Source: Prevotella sp. (lineage in GTDB: Bacteria > Bacteroidota > Bacteroidia > Bacteroidales > Bacteroidaceae). Taken from it: a DNA stretch of 45,320 bases. Numbering within the stretch: position 1 is the first letter of the stretch; every line of letters starts with the position of its first letter. Under the pieces are notes generated by a model. That model did no database searches. It was not told where the DNA came from and saw nothing but the letters and a program-made list of their open reading frames with translations. Below, piece by piece: positions 26,047 to 34,177 of this stretch. The translations under genes were made by a program, and so were the position numbers. The DNA is taken from positions 1 through 45,320 of the forward strand of contig JAFSNR010000022.1 of assembly GCA_017443345.1 (NCBI GenBank). The letters run 5' to 3'.

Positions 26047-27264
26047 ATGATGAAGGATTTTAATTTCTATGCGCCGACACGCGTCGTGTTCGGTCGCGAG
26101 GCGGAGGAGAAGCTTCCGCAGTTGATTCAGCAGTATGGTGGTGGCAAGGTGCTGATCCACTATGGTGGTGGCAGTGCCCGTCGTTCGGGATTGCTCGACA
26201 AGGTGGAGAAGATGCTCACCGAAGCAGGTATCAACTACGTGGAGTTGGGTGGGGTCGTGCCCAACCCGTTGCTCTCGAAGGTGAAAGAAGGTATCGAACT
26301 CTGTCGGAAGGAGAACGTCAACTTCATCCTCGCCGTGGGTGGCGGATCGGTGATCGACTCGTCGAAGGCCATCGGCTACGGTGTGGGTTATCCTGGTGAC
26401 GTCTGGGACTTCTGGGACGGTAAGGCTGTGCCTCAGACCTGTCTGCCCATCGGTGTGATGCTGACGATACCTGCAGCTGGAAGTGAGATGTCATCGAGTT
26501 GTGTGATCACCAATGATGAGGGTATGCTGAAGCGTGGCGTGAACAGCGACATCTGCCGTTGCAAGTTCGCCATCATGAACCCTGAGCGCACCTACACATT
26601 GCCCCCTTATCAGACAGCTGCCGGAGCGACAGACATCATGATGCACACGATGGAGCGCTACTTCTCGAAATACGAGGACGCGATGTTGACCGATGCCATC
26701 GCCGAAGCCTTGCTGAGGACGGTCATAGAGGCAACACCCGTGGTGCTGAAGGATCCCGAGGATTACAAGCATCGTGCTGCCATCATGTGGGCTGGCTCGC
26801 TGTCGCATAACGACCTGACGGAGTGCGGTACGGAGAAGGACTTCGCCTCTCATCGTCTGGAGCATGAGTTGAGCGGACTCTTCGGAGTGACCCATGGTGC
26901 CGGACTGGCTGCCATCTGGGGTTCCTGGGCCCGTTACGTGAAGGACAAGCACCTGAATCGCTTTGTGAAGTTCGCCGTGAACGTGATGGGGATTGCTGTT
27001 CCTGCCACCGACTCTGCGATGCTGGCCACCGAGTCCGAGGTACAGAATGCCATCGCCCAGCGCGGTATCGAGGCCGTCGAGCGCTTCTTCACGAGCATCG
27101 GCATGCCCACGAGCATTCCTGAGCTGATAGGTCGCAAAGCTACCGACGAGGAGATCCAGATCATGGTGGACAAGTGTTCGCGTGGCGGCAAGATCACCGT
27201 CGGAGCGATGGAGGTTCTGGGACCGAAGGATATGGAGGCAGTTTATCAGCTGGCAAACGCTTAA
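26047..27264 (+). CDS. Iron-containing alcohol dehydrogenase (butanol dehydrogenase type)
   Basis: A 405-residue member of the Fe-ADH family. The N-terminal FYAPTRVVFG, nucleotide-binding VGGGSVIDSSKAI and the metal-ligand region around HRLEHELSGLFGVTHGAGLAAIW are clear. It probably reduces aldehydes to alcohols with NAD(P)H, resembling the YqhD/BdhA branch. A single-gene unit with its own promoter; the tandem ATGs at 26047 and 26050 cannot be told apart. Confidence 0.92.
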   Translation: MMKDFNFYAPTRVVFGREAEEKLPQLIQQYGGGKVLIHYGGGSARRSGLLDKVEKMLTEAGINYVELGGVVPNPLLSKVKEGIELCRKENVNFILAVGGGSVIDSSKAIGYGVGYPGDVWDFWDGKAVPQTCLPIGVMLTIPAAGSEMSSSCVITNDEGMLKRGVNSDICRCKFAIMNPERTYTLPPYQTAAGATDIMMHTMERYFSKYEDAMLTDAIAEALLRTVIEATPVVLKDPEDYKHRAAIMWAGSLSHNDLTECGTEKDFASHRLEHELSGLFGVTHGAGLAAIWGSWARYVKDKHLNRFVKFAVNVMGIAVPATDSAMLATESEVQNAIAQRGIEAVERFFTSIGMPTSIPELIGRKATDEEIQIMVDKCSRGGKITVGAMEVLGPKDMEAVYQLANA

Positions 27265-27307
27265 AGTAACAAAATGTAACGATTTGAGTAAAAAAAGTGT
27301 CTTTTTA

Positions 27308-27339
27308 TTTGTTTGTTTCGAAAATTATGTTTACTTTTG
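27308..27339 (+). promoter_or_regulatory. Promoter of the leu operon
   Basis: TTTG (27308-27311), 20 bp, TACTTTTG (27332-27339), matching the Bacteroidetes consensus, 27 bases before the leader peptide ATG. Confidence 0.65.
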
Positions 27340-27366
27340 CCCCCGATTTCAAAAACAAAAGAACGT

Positions 27367-27450
27367 ATGAAGAGTCTGAATCTACTTAACGGCCTTATTA
27401 TTATTCGACTGCAGAGAGCAGCCGGAAGTGACAGGGCGTTGGTAAATTGA
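27367..27450 (+). CDS. Leu/Ile/Val-rich leader peptide of the leu operon
   Basis: A 27-codon open frame, MKSLNLLNGLIIIRLQRAAG followed by SDRALVN. Ten of its 27 residues are branched-chain: six Leu, three consecutive Ile and one Val. It starts 27 bases after the promoter box and ends before a terminator, with the codons for residues 20-22 lying in one arm of an antiterminator. The composition and placement are those of an attenuation leader sensing charged tRNA-Leu and tRNA-Ile. No Shine-Dalgarno is visible, as is normal here. Confidence 0.8.
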   Translation: MKSLNLLNGLIIIRLQRAAGSDRALVN

Positions 27451-27520
27451 CAATTGACAATTGATAATTGAAAATCATACGAGCCTTTCTCACTTCCGGG
27501 TGTGAAAGGCTTTTTGTTTT
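27422..27520 (+). promoter_or_regulatory. Attenuator: antiterminator and terminator of the leu operon
   Basis: Antiterminator: CCGGAAGTGA (27422-27431, inside the leader peptide gene) pairs perfectly with TCACTTCCGG (27490-27499). Terminator: 27482-27493 pairs with 27500-27511 with one T-T mismatch, loop TTCCGG, followed by TTTTTGTTTT. The two structures share 27490-27499 and exclude each other. A ribosome stalled on the Ile run (27397-27405) would leave the antiterminator arm free; one reaching the stop at 27448 would cover it and let the terminator form. Confidence 0.8.
27446..27476. repeat. Period-7 repeat (TTGACAA units) in the leu leader
   Basis: TTGACAA, TTGACAA, TTGATAA, TTGAAAA heptamers form the linker between the leader peptide stop and the terminator. 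Same unit as the pyrF and rpiB-tkt spacers. Confidence 0.75.
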
Positions 27521-27571
27521 GAAAAAGGTAAAAAGGTAAAAGGGTAAAAAAGTAAAAAGGTAAAAGTAAAC
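27520..27571. repeat. Repeat spacer (GGTAAAAA units) before leuA
   Basis: Six GGTAAAAA-like units of period 7-8 lie between the attenuator's T-tract and the leuA start. The A-rich run just before the ATG may help translation in the absence of a Shine-Dalgarno (inference). Confidence 0.75.
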
Positions 27572-27590
27572 AAATAAACGCAAAAAGACA

Positions 27591-29090
27591 ATGAACGACA
27601 GACTTTACATTTTCGACACGACCCTCCGCGACGGGGAACAGGTGCCTGGCTGCCAGTTGAACACCGTAGAGAAGATACAGGTGGCTAAGGCACTCGAACA
27701 ACTCGGTGTGGATGTGATCGAAGCAGGATTCCCGATTTCGAGTCCTGGTGATTTTAACTCGGTGATTGAGATTTCCAAGGCCGTTACGTGGCCCGTGATC
27801 TGTGCGCTGACAAGAGCCGTTGAGCGTGATATCGACACGGCTTTCGAAGCCCTGAAGTATGCCAAGCACAAGCGCATCCACACGGGTATCGGTACCAGCG
27901 ACGAGCACATCCTGTATAAATTCAACTCCGACCGCGAGCATATCCTCGAGCAGGCCATTGCCGCCACGAAGTATGCCAAGCGCTACGTCGACGACGTGGA
28001 GTTCTACTGTGAGGATGCTGGTCGTACGGACAATGAATACCTCGCCCGTGTGGTAGAGGCCGTCATCAAGGCTGGAGCTACGGTGGTGAACATCCCCGAC
28101 ACGACGGGCTATTGTCTGCCACAGGAGTATTTCGAGAAGATCAAGTACCTGAAGGAGCATGTGGACGGAATCGACCGTGCCATCATCTCTACCCACTGTC
28201 ATAACGACCTGGGTATGGCTACGGCCAACACCCTGAACGGTGTGATGGCAGGTGCGCGACAGGTGGAGGTGACCATCAACGGCATCGGTGAGCGTGCCGG
28301 TAACACCTCGCTCGAGGAGATTGCCATGATCCTGAAGTGTCACAAGTCGCTCGAGATTGATACGAACATCAACACAACGAAGATCTATCCGACGTCGAGA
28401 ATGGTGTCGAGTCTGATGAACATGCCCGTACAGCCCAACAAGGCCATCGTGGGTCGTAACGCCTTTGCCCACTCGAGTGGTATCCATCAGGACGGTGTCC
28501 TGAAGAACGTGCACACCTACGAGATTATGGACCCGAAGGATGTGGGTATCGACGATAACTCAATCGTACTGACAGCCCGTTCCGGACGTGCAGCACTGAA
28601 ACACCGTCTGCACGTGAACGGTGTCGATCTGGAGGAGGACAAGCTCGACAAGATCTATGAGAAGTTCCTGATACTGGCCGACCAGAAGAAGGAGGTGACC
28701 GATGCCGATGCCCTGATGTTGGCAGGTGCCGATATGGCCGATACACACGCCGTTCGTCTCGACTTCCTGCAGGTGACCACTGGTAAGGGTGTGAAGAGTG
28801 TGGCCTCCATCGGTCTCGACATCTCTGGTCAGAAGTTCGAGGCAGCTGCTTCAGGCAATGGTCCTGTAGACGCAGCCATCAAGGCGCTGAAGAAGATCAT
28901 CATGAAGCAGATGACGCTGAAGGAGTTTACCATCCAGGCCATCTCGAAGGGTTCCGACGATGTGGGAAAGGTCCACATGCAGGTGGAATACGACGGCAGT
29001 CTGTACTACGGCTTCGGTGCCAATACCGACATCGTGACGGCCTCGGTGGAAGCGTATATCGATTGTATTAATAAGTTTAAGGGAGAATGA
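27591..29090 (+). CDS. leuA: 2-isopropylmalate synthase
   Basis: A 499-residue enzyme condensing 2-ketoisovalerate and acetyl-CoA, the first step of leucine synthesis. The N-terminal [16 protein letters not shown], metal ligands [13 protein letters not shown], and [14 protein letters not shown] are clear, and a C-terminal LeuA dimer/regulatory domain (about residues 370-499) binds leucine in relatives. Controlled by the leader attenuator upstream. It is followed by leuC after 25 bases. Confidence 0.96.
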
Positions 29091-29115: not shown

Positions 29116-30504
29116 ATGAATACATTATTTGATAAAATATGGGATAGGCACGTGGTGCAGCAGGTGGAGGACGGACCGACGCAACTCTATATCGACCGTC
29201 TGTACTGTCACGAGGTGACCTCGCCACAGGCATTCGAAGGCATGAGGGCCCGAGGGCTGAAGTGCTTCCGTCCTGAGAAGATCTACTGCATGCCCGACCA
29301 TAACACCCCGACGCACGATCAGGACAAACCCATCGAGGATCCTGTATCGAAGACGCAGGTGGACACGTTGGCGAAGAACGCGGCTTACTTCGGACTGACG
29401 CACTACGGCATGATGTCGAAGGACAACGGTATCATCCATGTGGTGGGTCCTGAGAAGGGTCTCTCGCTGCCAGGCATGACCATCGTTTGTGGCGACTCTC
29501 ACACCTCTACTCATGGTGCGATGGGGGCTGTGGCCTTTGGTATCGGAACATCGGAGGTGGAGATGGTGATGGCCTCGCAGTGTATCCTCCAGCAGAAGCC
29601 CAAGTCGATGCGTATCACGATCCACGGTGTGTTGCAAAAGGGTGTGACAGCGAAGGATGTGGCCCTCTACCTGATGTCGAAGCTGACGACCAGTGGAGCG
29701 ACGGGCTATTTCGTGGAGTATGCAGGTTCGACGGTGAAGGCCATGTCGATGGAAGGTCGTCTGACGCTCTGTAACCTCTCGATAGAGATGGGTGCCCGTG
29801 GAGGACTGATTGCCCCCGACACCACGACCTTCAATTATATCAAGGGCCGTGAGTTCGCCCCGAAGGGAGAGGACTGGGACAAGGCCGTAGAGTATTGGAA
29901 GACGCTGAAGAGTGGTCCTGACGCCGTGTTCGACAAGGAACTCACGTTTGATGCTGCCGACATCGAGCCACGCATCACTTACGGCACCAATCCCGGTATG
30001 GGTATCGGTATCACGGAAGAAATACCTCTAATCACTAACCCCTCACCACAAACCACTGGTCTTGAAAAGGCCCTCAACTATATGGGTTTCAAGCCTGGCC
30101 AGAAGTTGCTCGGCACGAAGGTCGACTACGTCTTCCTGGGTGCCTGTACGAACGGTCGTATTGAGGATTTCCGAGCCTTTGCCTCTATCGTTGCAGGTCG
30201 TCAGAAAGCCAAGGACGTCATCGCCTGGCTGGTACCTGGTTCGTGGGCTGTGGATGCTCAGATCCGTGAGGAGGGACTCGACAAGGTGCTAGCAGCAGCA
30301 GGTTTCGAGATCCGACAGCCTGGTTGTTCGGCCTGTCTGGCGATGAACGATGATAAGATCCCGGCTGGTAAGTTGAGTGTATCGACCTCTAACCGTAATT
30401 TCGAAGGTCGTCAGGGCCCCGGTGCCCGTACCATCCTCGCCTCGCCGCTAACAGCAGCTGCAGCAGCGATCACGGGTGTCATCACTGATCCACGAGAAAT
30501 GTAG
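29116..30504 (+). CDS. leuC: 3-isopropylmalate dehydratase, large subunit
   Basis: A 462-residue aconitase-family subunit that with LeuD isomerises 2- to 3-isopropylmalate. It has [20 protein letters not shown], the iron-sulfur ligands in [11 protein letters not shown] and [11 protein letters not shown], and the C-terminal [19 protein letters not shown]. Normally leuD follows directly; here a foreign-looking S23-type gene lies between. The same LeuCD complex could also process citramalate made by the LeuA paralogue downstream. Confidence 0.97.
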
Positions 30505-30559: not shown

Positions 30560-30928
30560 ATGTTGAGAGACAATTTGATAGCAGACATGACGGAGAATTT
30601 TGCTTTACGTATTATTGAAATGTATCGGTATTTACGGAAAGAAAAGCATGAGTATGTCATGTCTTTACAGATTTATCGTTCAGGAACAAGCATTGGCGCT
30701 AATATCTCTGAAAGCAAGAATGCTCAAAGCAAAGCAGATTTTGTAAGTAAGTTAAGCATAGCTTTAAAAGAAGCAGGCGAGACAGAATTTTGGTTGAAGC
30801 TTCTCTATAAGTCTCAGACAATCTCAGAAATAGAATATAATTCTATTCAGAATGATTTAAACATTATCATAGGAACATTAGTAAAAATAATAAAGAAAAC
30901 AAAGGAAAATATGGAGGTTGAGAAATAA
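30560..30928 (+). CDS. Four-helix-bundle protein (S23 / 23S rRNA-intervening-sequence type)
   Basis: A 122-residue protein with the family signature RSGTSIGANISES (residues about 41-53) and a mostly helical Lys-rich sequence. Homologues are encoded in intervening sequences of 23S rRNA genes and in diverse other contexts; their function is unknown. The gene is visibly AT-rich compared with leuC and leuD and interrupts the usual leuC-leuD junction. It is bracketed by a perfect 26-bp inverted repeat, so the whole unit (30504-30955) looks like an inserted cassette. Confidence 0.85.
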   Translation: MLRDNLIADMTENFALRIIEMYRYLRKEKHEYVMSLQIYRSGTSIGANISESKNAQSKADFVSKLSIALKEAGETEFWLKLLYKSQTISEIEYNSIQNDLNIIIGTLVKIIKKTKENMEVEK

Positions 30929-30969: not shown

Positions 30970-31566
30970 ATGAAACAGAAGTTTAATGTTATTACATCGA
31001 CTTGCGTGCCATTGCCATTGGAGAATGTGGATACCGACCAGATTATCCCGGCGAGGTTCCTGAAGGCCACGACGAGGGAGGAAAGTTTCTTCGGAGATAA
31101 CCTCTTCAGAGACTGGCGATATCAGGCTGACGGTACGCCTAATCAGGACTTCGTACTCAACGATCCAACCTATAGCGGTTGTATCCTCGTGGCAGGCAAG
31201 AACTTCGGCTCGGGATCGAGTCGCGAACACGCTGCCTGGGCCATTGCCGGCTATGGCTTCCGTGTGGTCATCAGCAGTTTCTTTGCCGATATCCACAAGA
31301 ACAACGAACTGAACAATTTCGTACTGCCCGTACAGGTTAGCGAAGGTTTTCTCGCTGAGTTGTTTGAGAGTATCAAGGCCGATCCGAAGACAGAGGTGGA
31401 GGTCAATCTGCCCGAGCAGACGGTGACCAACAAGGCTACCGGCAAACAGGAGCATTTCGATATCAACGGCTATAAGAAGCATTGTCTGATGAACGGTCTC
31501 GACGATATCGACTTCCTGGTACAGAATCAAGAAAAGACAGCGTTATGGGAACAGCAGAACAAGTAG
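30970..31566 (+). CDS. leuD: 3-isopropylmalate dehydratase, small subunit
   Basis: A 198-residue swivel-domain subunit, partner of LeuC. It has NVDTDQIIPARFL near the start and the substrate-binding FGSGSSREHAAWAI. Length is normal. The downstream LeuA paralogue starts inside it (ATG 31545), giving a 22-base overlap and probable translational coupling. Confidence 0.97.
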   Translation: MKQKFNVITSTCVPLPLENVDTDQIIPARFLKATTREESFFGDNLFRDWRYQADGTPNQDFVLNDPTYSGCILVAGKNFGSGSSREHAAWAIAGYGFRVVISSFFADIHKNNELNNFVLPVQVSEGFLAELFESIKADPKTEVEVNLPEQTVTNKATGKQEHFDINGYKKHCLMNGLDDIDFLVQNQEKTALWEQQNK

Positions 31567-33119
31567 GCCATTACAAGAAGTTGCAGCCGTTTGTGGAGAT
31601 CATGGACTCCACGCTGCGTGACGGTGAGCAGACGAGTGGTGTCAGTTTCCTTCCTCATGAGAAACTGATCATCGCCCGCATGTTGCTTCGCGACCTGAAT
31701 GTGGATCGTATCGAGGTGGCATCGGCACGTGTCTCCGAAGGTGAGAAGGAGGCTGTGAGCATGATTTGTCGCTACGCCCGACAGATAGACATGCTGGAGC
31801 GTGTGGAGGTCCTCGGCTTCGTGGATGGCGGACAGAGTGTGGACTGGGTGGAGTCCTGTGGTTGCAAGACCATCAACCTCCTGGCGAAGGGCTCGTTGCG
31901 CCATTGTCAGGAACAGTTGCACAAGACGGCTCAGGCGCATATCGACGACATCATCAAGGAGGTGAGATATGCCCGTGGGAAGGGACTCACCGTGAACCTC
32001 TATCTCGAGGACTGGTCGAACGGTATGAAGGATTCGCCCATCTATGTCTACGACATGATGGACGCACTCTGCGACATCGGCATCCGACGGTTTATGTTGC
32101 CCGATACCCTCGGCATCATGAACCCCCTGCAGTGTATCGAGTATTTCCGTAAGATGATGAAGCGGTATTCCGACACCCATTTCGATTTCCACGCCCATAA
32201 CGACTACGATCTTGCCGTGTCGAACTCGTTGGCTGCTGTATTGAGTGGCGTCAAGGGACTACACGTGACGGTGAACGGTCTGGGTGAGCGTTGTGGCAAT
32301 GCCCCCTTGTCGAGTGTGCAGGTGATCCTCAAGGATCAGTTCCACGCCAAGACGAATATCATCGAGAACAAGCTGAACGACATCTCCCGTCTGGTGGAAA
32401 GCTACAGCGGTATTGCCGTCGCTCCTAACCAGCCGATTATCGGTGATAATGTTTTTACACAAGTGGCAGGCGTTCATGCTGATGGTGACAAGAAAAACGG
32501 CCTCTATCAGAACGAGTTGGTGCCTGAGCGCTTTGGCCGTAAACGCGAGTATGCCCTGGGTAAGAACAGCGGACGGGCGAACATCGCCAAGAACCTCGAG
32601 GAACTGGGATTGGAACTCACCCCCGAGCAGACGAAGCGCGTTACCCAACGTATCACCGAACTGGGTGACAAGAAGGAAATCGTGACGCAGGATGACCTGC
32701 CATTCATCGTGAGCGATGTGCTGAAGCACGATGCGCCTGAGGATAAAGTGAAGCTGGTAAGTTATGTGGTATCAACGGCTTACGGTCTGAAGCCTGGAGC
32801 AAATATTAAGGTTGAGATTAATGGCCAGGAGTATGAGGCTTCAGCGACTGGCGACGGTCAGTATGATGCCTTTGTGAAGTCGCTCCGTTATATCTACAAG
32901 AAGTACCTCGACCGCACGTTCCCCATCCTGCAGAACTATCAGGTGAGCATCCCTCCAGGTGGTCGTACGGATGCCTTGGTGCAGACCGTCATCACCTGGA
33001 ACGACAACGGTAAGATACTGCGCACGCGTGGTCTCGATGCCGACCAGACGGAAGCGGCCATCAAGGCTACCTTCAAGATGTTGAATTTATTTGAAAAAGA
33101 GCAAAATAACGAACTATGA
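31545..33119 (+). CDS. Second LeuA-family synthase, citramalate-synthase-like
   Basis: A 524-residue paralogue of LeuA with [16 protein letters not shown], metal ligands in [31 protein letters not shown], and a complete C-terminal LeuA-dimer regulatory domain ([20 protein letters not shown]). It diverges clearly from the first LeuA. In this family the alternatives are citramalate synthase (pyruvate plus acetyl-CoA, leading to isoleucine) or a second isopropylmalate synthase. Citramalate synthase is favoured by the presence of a normal leuA and the Ile-rich leader, but this is inference. Start ATG 31545; ends ATGA-overlapping leuB. Confidence 0.82.
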
Positions 33120-34177
33120 AACTGAAGATTGCGATTTTGGCGGGTGATGGAATTGGACCCGAGATTATGAAACAAGGTGTGGCTGTGCTCGACGCGATAG
33201 CCGAGAAGTTTGGTCACGAGTTTGAATACGAGGAAGCCATCTGTGGCGCTCATGCCATTGATGAGGTAGGCGATCCTTACCCTGAGTCCACCCACGAGGT
33301 GTGTATGCGTGCCGATGCTGTTCTCTTTGCTGCTGTCGGCGATCTGAAGTACGATCATGACCCCACGGCCAAGGTCCGTCCTGAGACTGGTTTGCTGGCC
33401 ATGCGTAAGAAGCTTGGACTCTTCGCCAACGTTCGTCCTGTGGCTACCTTCGACTGTCTGCTGCACAAGTCACCCTTGAAGGACGAACTCATCCGTGGTG
33501 CTGACTTCGTCGTGTTGCGCGAGTTGACGGGAGGCATGTATTTCGGTGAGAAGTATCAGGATAACGACAAGGCCTACGACACGGACATCTATACCCGTCC
33601 TGAGATCGAGCGTATCGTGAAGCTCGGCTTTGAGATGGCGATGGAGCGTAACAAGCACCTGACTGTGGTCGACAAGGCCAACGTCCTGGCATCCTCACGC
33701 CTGTGGCGACAGATTGCCAAGGAGATCGAGCCCCAGTATCCTGAGGTGCGCACCGATTATATGTTTATCGACAACGCCTCGATGCGCGTGCTGACAGAGC
33801 CTCGTTTCTTCGATGTCATCGTCACGGAGAACACCTTCGGCGATATCCTCACCGACGAGACGGCCTGTATCACGGGTTCTATGGGACTTCAGCCATCGTC
33901 CTCACTGGGTGAGCACACACCGCTTTTCGAGCCCGTACACGGCTCTTGGCCACAGGCAGCAGGACAGAACCTCGCCAATCCGTTGGCTCAGATCCTCTCA
34001 GCCGCCATGTTGCTCGAGCACTTCGGTCTGAAGAAGGAAGGCGCCCTCGTGCGTGAGGCTGTCGATGCCTCGTTGGCTGCTAATGTCCGTACCCCAGAGA
34101 TCCAGGTCGAAGGTGGTGCAAAGTACGGCACCCGTGAGGTAGGAGAGTGGATTGTGAGATATATTTTGGGAAAATGA
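33116..34177 (+). CDS. leuB: 3-isopropylmalate dehydrogenase
   Basis: A 353-residue NAD-dependent oxidative decarboxylase. It shows [13 protein letters not shown] at the start, [13 protein letters not shown], and [30 protein letters not shown] (cited in part) with the metal-binding Asp residues. It shares ATGA with the preceding stop. The enzyme can also act on 3-methylmalate in the citramalate route, matching the neighbouring paralogue. Confidence 0.97.

Follow-up and report, generated by a model that had tools for sequence, protein, structure and literature searches.

In the window (the whole stretch of 45,320 nucleotides of Prevotella sp. DNA that was analysed), a dehydrogenase gene on the plus strand ends at position 27264 and is followed by a promoter, a short leader gene, a hairpin and leuA. 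The promoter, on the plus strand like the leader elements and operon genes described below, consists of a -33 element (TTTG, 27308-27311), a 20-nt spacer and the -7 element TACTTTTG (27332-27339), which we take to be of the Bacteroidetes type. Such a motif was found within 120 nt 5' of the leader start codon in 58 of 61 leaders of the genus, the window included, compared with 15 of 12,200 shuffled regions. The genes downstream are leuA (27591-29090), coding for 2-isopropylmalate synthase (TIGR00973, 663.2 bits; cut-off, 598.7), leuC (29116-30504; TIGR00170, 630.1 bits; cut-off, 560.25), leuD (30970-31566; TIGR00171, 186.8 bits; cut-off, 116.25), a cimA-like citramalate synthase gene (31482-33119, with the homologous core starting at 31596) and leuB (33116-34177; TIGR00169, 423.9 bits; cut-off, 353.2). 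The best NCBIfam match of the cimA-like product was (R)-citramalate synthase NF042433, with an E value of 2.2e-181 and a score of 603.9 bits that lies under the cut-off of 950. Citramalate synthase catalyzes the reaction with which the citramalate pathway to isoleucine begins. As seen in all 13 of the leuA-first operons examined, leuA, leuC and a CimA homologue occur together. We also observed a gene for a 23S rRNA-intervening-sequence (four-helix bundle) protein at 30560-30928, between leuC and leuD; no such gene was seen at this place in those 11 of the 13 leuA-first operons for which both neighbors were called.

Two further sequence features were observed before leuA. Repeats of AATTGACAATTGACAATTGATAATTGA lie in the spacer at 27447-27476 and have similar counterparts in the spacers of five other loci of the genus (L009, L010, L028, L040 and L050); they yield sigma-70-like hits and may correspond to a small intergenic DNA repeat. 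An A-rich AAGGTAAAAAGGTAAA stretch (27524-27570) directly precedes the start of leuA. Comparable stretches are found before leuA or ilvD starts elsewhere, in the 5' untranslated region of ilvD from the same genome (L123) and in loci L054, L061, L062 and L064, and they may be a feature of translation starts in this genus.

The leader gene (27367-27450) has 27 codons and specifies the peptide MKSLNLLNGLIIIRLQRAAGSDRALVN, which contains six Leu residues, three consecutive Ile residues and one Val residue. It lacks a Shine-Dalgarno sequence, and an SD-like 4-mer was found in none of the 61 genus leaders. The putative sensing codons are Leu10 (CTT) and Ile11 to Ile13 (ATT ATT ATT), at 27394-27405. 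Ile and Leu are conserved at this place in the genus alignment, whose consensus consists of ATG, a Leu-rich start, (I/L)IIIRL and then the arm GGAAGTGA. The presence of in-frame Ile runs in all leader open reading frames (ORFs) is partly a consequence of how the ORFs were selected. Ile is written as ATT in 243 of 276 cases in the genus leaders versus 30 of 163 in six genes of the window. The single Val codon (27442-27444) lies 3' of the antiterminator arm.

The RNA of this region contains two structures that exclude each other. An intrinsic terminator is formed by a stem (27482-27489 with 27504-27511, extended by 27491-27493 with 27500-27502) and a T-rich tract (27511-27520). The 5' arm of the antiterminator, CCGGAAGTGA (27422-27431), lies within the leader gene and pairs perfectly over 10 bp with the 3' arm, TCACTTCCGG (27490-27499), which is common to the 5' arm and loop of the terminator. 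When the leader was shuffled 20,000 times with its dinucleotides preserved, a complement to the terminator 5' arm as long as 10 bp arose in 64 cases. A 1:2 or "protector" hairpin, predicted in the ribosome-free full leader, pairs 27404-27412 with 27418-27426 around a 5-nt loop. Its left strand is the end of the Ile run and its right strand overlaps the antiterminator arm; the inner pairs are compatible with the antiterminator, RNAalifold showing both, and the outer pairs are incompatible with it.

The original prediction had proposed to fold the RNA from 27340 to 27520, and this 181-nt region gave a free energy of -51 kcal/mol (z = -3.88), with none of 200 shuffles equally stable. A simple scan of 26900-27700 returned no terminator-like sites, and a terminator finder tolerating one mismatch gave the hairpin a score of 27.4; we think that the simple scan missed it owing to a T.T mismatch after 8 bp of stem. 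At gathering scores, Rfam 15 had no matches in the window, and the amino acid leader families were absent from a permissive Rfam search of 27250-27600. The consensus promoter, the composition of the 27-codon leader, the 10-bp antiterminator and the terminator at 27482-27511 with its T tract all proved to be as the original prediction had them; that description did not yet include the 1:2 stem or the cimA-like gene.

Next, the leader was compared within the genus. A LeuA match (in a few genomes, a paralogue alone) was found in 159 of 200 genomes, and the set of 91 loci, minus one paralogue and one 76-base scrap, gave 89 upstream regions, the window included. A leader was present in 61 of these 89 (59 picked by script, minus one false pick, plus three added by eye). 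No leader was seen in the remaining 28, many of which have a promoter motif near leuA. Homologues without the leader had been named beforehand as evidence against an attenuator; they do exist, and we read them as a different promoter arrangement and not as a refutation. The distance from the last Ile codon to the antiterminator arm was 21 nt in 42 and 22 nt in 13 of the 59 leaders tested (55 together). The frame of the arm reads Gly-Ser-Asp or similar in 47 of the 61 leaders, and in 13 the arm is one base out of that frame, 12 of these reading Arg-Lys-stop with the stop codon inside the arm; the arm was not found in one leader. The arm retains its bases in either frame. The part before it behaves as codons and the arm itself as RNA.

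The alignment of the 61 homologous leaders, which had also been suggested as a check, showed covariation in both stems together with conserved Leu and Ile codons. Terminator positions were paired in 92.8% of cells, with double changes in 4 of 11 pairs, and those of the 1:2 stem in 90.0%, with double changes in 2 of 9 pairs. For these two helices combined, 91.6% of cells were paired, and 6 pairs and 16 cells were doubly changed, compared with shuffle means of 2.6 pairs and 3.0 cells; the observed values were reached in 4 and 0 of 500 shuffles. The antiterminator was paired in 94.1% of cells, with 4 of 10 pairs and 21 cells doubly changed, compared with shuffle means of 1.7 pairs and 9.3 cells, values reached in 0 of 500 shuffles in both cases, and all of these shuffles ignore kinship. 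In slid controls, no more than 8 cells were doubly changed and pairing did not exceed 61.4%. The antiterminator covariation rests on few columns because most of its pairs hardly vary, and one covarying column is paired in just 62.3% of cells. Compensatory changes in the alignment thus show up in all three predicted helices.

To describe the predicted folding switch, the ribosome was represented as 33 to 36 blocked nucleotides, all values being those at equilibrium. For the full window leader (to 27516), the terminator had a probability of 0.999 when the ribosome was absent, lay on the arm or had reached the stop codon, and the antiterminator had a probability of 0.999 with a stall at Ile13, Leu10 or Leu7. 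The arm within the leader gene would thus be freed by a stall at the Ile run, as originally proposed, and the mutual exclusion of the two structures is seen both in their common segment (27490-27499) and in this predicted switching. A stall at Leu15 left the terminator at 0.918, suggesting that not every Leu codon reports. When the RNA ended at 27500, with the terminator incomplete, the antiterminator reached at least 0.998 in every state except that with a ribosome on the arm; it was favored without a ribosome too, so the order of events matters. Among 59 genus leaders, the terminator exceeded 0.5 in 58 with no ribosome, in 55 with a ribosome on the start codon and in all 59 with a ribosome on the arm; the single exception without a ribosome, leader L020, preferred the antiterminator. 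With the ribosome at the last Ile codon, the antiterminator exceeded 0.5 in 37 of the 59, and the terminator was kept in 22.

The locus therefore holds what characterizes an attenuator, namely, a leader ORF with codons for the product, an intrinsic terminator, an antiterminator that excludes it and a 1:2 stem that sequesters the antiterminator arm; a stalled ribosome would mask the first arm and free the second, a switch predicted at equilibrium in those 37 leaders. We consider it very probable that this is a classical ribosome-mediated transcription attenuator of leuA-leuC-leuD-cimA-leuB, sensing charged Ile and Leu tRNA, and the class named in the original prediction is borne out by covarying helices, conserved codons and the folding switch. 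RNA polymerase would start a few bases 3' of the -7 box and transcribe the leader gene, on which a ribosome would load without a Shine-Dalgarno sequence. With an ample supply of Ile and Leu, the ribosome would proceed to the arm at 27422-27431 and cover it, and with no ribosome the 1:2 stem would hold the arm; with the arm covered or held, the terminator would form and transcription would end in the T tract. When Ile is short (or Leu, at codon 10), the ribosome would halt at 27394-27405 and mask the left strand of this stem, so that the arm stays free, pairs with 27490-27499 and prevents the terminator, and the operon would be transcribed. That the ribosome stalls, that transcripts end early in cells and that amino acids are the signal is inferred from these elements, from how they are conserved and from the predicted thermodynamic switching of the RNA.

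A covariance model built from the genus leaders was used to follow the element further. In the window's own genome, up to an E value of 10, it matched this locus only, plus the mirror image of the leuA hairpin (E value of 2.58). In the order, 49 of 246 other genomes had matches at an E value of 0.01 or less, at 64 places; of the 50 places inspected, 30 lie before leuA, 20 before ilvD and none elsewhere, the genes being identified by protein sequence and, for 13 leuA and 9 ilvD genes, also by BLAST. Among the best 80 named loci, the model matched just upstream of leuA in 19 (E values of 9e-25 to 0.2), including Bacteroides gallinarum, B. rodentium, Phocaeicola plebeius, Tannerella, Prolixibacteraceae and Ancylomarina euxinus, and before an ilvD-like gene in 6 (E values of 4e-5 to 0.05) from Flavobacterium, Lutibacter and Lutimonas. 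In a draw across the phylum, 5 of 197 other genomes had matches, which is either a lower bound, given a model fitted to the genus and strict filters, or a sign that few genomes outside the order carry the element.

These relatives bear on the original claim that the leader reads three amino acids. An attenuator that senses Val along with Ile and Leu would agree with the one Val codon of the leader, but this codon lies 3' of the arm, and Val falls within the densest 10-residue Ile/Leu/Val window in only 2 of 61 genus leaders. Outside the genus, Val occurs in that window in 2 of 30 leuA leaders of the order and in 1 of 16 named ones (3 of 46; the three leaders closest to the window, L124-L126, are excluded from the named set), as opposed to 18 of 20 ilvD leaders of the order and all 6 named ones (24 of 26). 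The difference between ilvD and leuA has a Fisher p value of about 1e-13, uncorrected for kinship; the picking of leader ORFs by Ile/Leu/Val density favors such peptides generally and not Val at ilvD. Sensing of all three amino acids is accordingly very unlikely, and we rejected it on the position of the Val codon and these counts. The codons sensed here are, judging from the sequence comparison, those for Ile and Leu and not Val, a reading to be expected because the operon makes Leu and, via citramalate, Ile. Across loci, the leader codons follow the product of the operon, with Ile and Leu at leuA and Val added at ilvD.

The model trained on leuA leaders also matched other operons. The five matches of the phylum draw (loci L246-L250) lie before two ilvE genes, with Ile/Val leaders; before trpE, with four Trp in a row (WWWW); before an aspartokinase gene of the kind fused to homoserine dehydrogenase, with Thr and Ile codons; and before an ACT-domain gene that may be ilvN, the ACT match lying under its cut-off. 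The trpE and aspartokinase proteins are both cut by the end of their loci, and their scores lie under the cut-offs of the best models. In the window's own genome, where trpB precedes trpE, the leader MIRTANFWWWQCSRFKRS with three Trp codons and a promoter motif lies about 170 nt upstream of trpB (L251, minus strand); a strong hairpin was seen by eye, to which the finder gave no score for want of T. Of the 29 trpB loci of the genus that were examined (4 of which were not parsed properly), 16 have a run of 2 to 4 Trp before the gene, and 12 of those 16 have a scored terminator. No leader was seen upstream of ilvD and thrA in the own genome, and hisG was not found in this genome, which is 92.1% complete.

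A terminator and antiterminator pair alone would also be compatible with a leader bound by a metabolite, a tRNA or a protein (riboswitch, T-box, PyrR or ribosomal protein), the small ORF being incidental. The permissive Rfam search placed a PyrR binding site at 27388-27519 (25 bits; E value of 0.19), its highest score, which is far under the cut-off of 54 bits and was rejected as chance. The lack of matches at gathering scores speaks against such a leader, as does the way in which the codon runs track the operon (Ile/Leu, Val, Trp or Thr) in leaders that otherwise differ; we regard this explanation as highly improbable. Just as improbable, in our judgment, is an arrest by the nascent peptide, in which a conserved IIIIRL would halt the ribosome upon binding of a free amino acid and not for lack of charged tRNA. 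The peptide is indeed strongly conserved in the genus, including R and L after the Ile run, but the conserved bases after the run also build the 1:2 stem there, and leader peptides outside the genus have little in common beyond the amino acids of the pathway. That the hairpin is the ordinary terminator of the dehydrogenase gene, accompanied by a chance ORF and a leuA with its own promoter, would suit the position of that gene upstream on the same strand and is hardly credible given the strong promoter motif before nearly all genus leaders and the conservation of leader, spacing and all three helices.

The proposed Ile- and Leu-sensing attenuator can be compared with known systems. In Escherichia coli and Salmonella, the leuABCD operon is controlled by the leuL attenuator, whose leader has four Leu codons and which Rfam names Leu_leader. 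Both have runs of regulatory codons, 1:2, 2:3 and 3:4 helices and an intrinsic terminator before leuA. Unlike leuL, the Prevotella leader has Ile as well as Leu codons, lacks a Shine-Dalgarno sequence, carries the antiterminator arm inside the leader gene, has no Rfam match and precedes an operon with a cimA-like gene. The E. coli ilvGMEDA attenuator (ilvL) is likewise multivalent for branched-chain amino acids, but Val is absent from the Prevotella sensing run, and a closer parallel to ilvL is found in the ilvD leaders of relatives.

The work on Corynebacterium ilvBNC and the ilvB-II motif (PMC10272879) describes a branched-chain leader peptide, a terminator and comparative evidence outside the proteobacteria; phylum, gene and sequence differ, and reporter gene assays are mentioned there. 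Within the phylum, a section on Flavobacterium psychrophilum reports strong clues, from transcriptome and structure, that amino acid operons are preceded by attenuators with leader peptides, and it names no leu operon, codons or helices (PMC9723704). A Bacteroides thetaiotaomicron study reports small ORFs reminiscent of leader peptides (PMC7366714). The original remark that no experimental description was known in the phylum has to be qualified by the flavobacterial clues. No description of a leuA attenuator in Bacteroidota was found in the literature searched; Lopatovskaya 2010 and Vitreschak 2004 may contain predictions for this phylum. The absence of a Shine-Dalgarno sequence, which had been presented as a peculiarity, is real and not distinctive, being normal in a phylum whose members are naturally without them (PMC6847099).

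Overall, what is new is this member and its spread; the kind of mechanism is already known and hardly described in the phylum. For a major group of bacteria from gut and rumen, the element provides a well-defined regulatory RNA that no Rfam 15 family matches, and its reading of Ile and Leu suits an operon in which a cimA-like gene accompanies the leu genes. We find it somewhat probable that, in much of Bacteroidota, branched-chain, Trp and Thr operons are routinely regulated by ribosome-mediated attenuation from leaders without Shine-Dalgarno sequences, the codons being matched to each operon: Ile and Leu where leu shares an operon with cimA, and Val in addition at ilvD. In that case, the leading ribosome has to stay near RNA polymerase, and transcription-translation coupling in the phylum would become directly testable. 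Such attenuation depends on a ribosome that follows RNA polymerase closely, and its spread would therefore be indirect evidence for coupling in a phylum without Shine-Dalgarno sequences, and these leaders could serve as ready-made reporters to test it.
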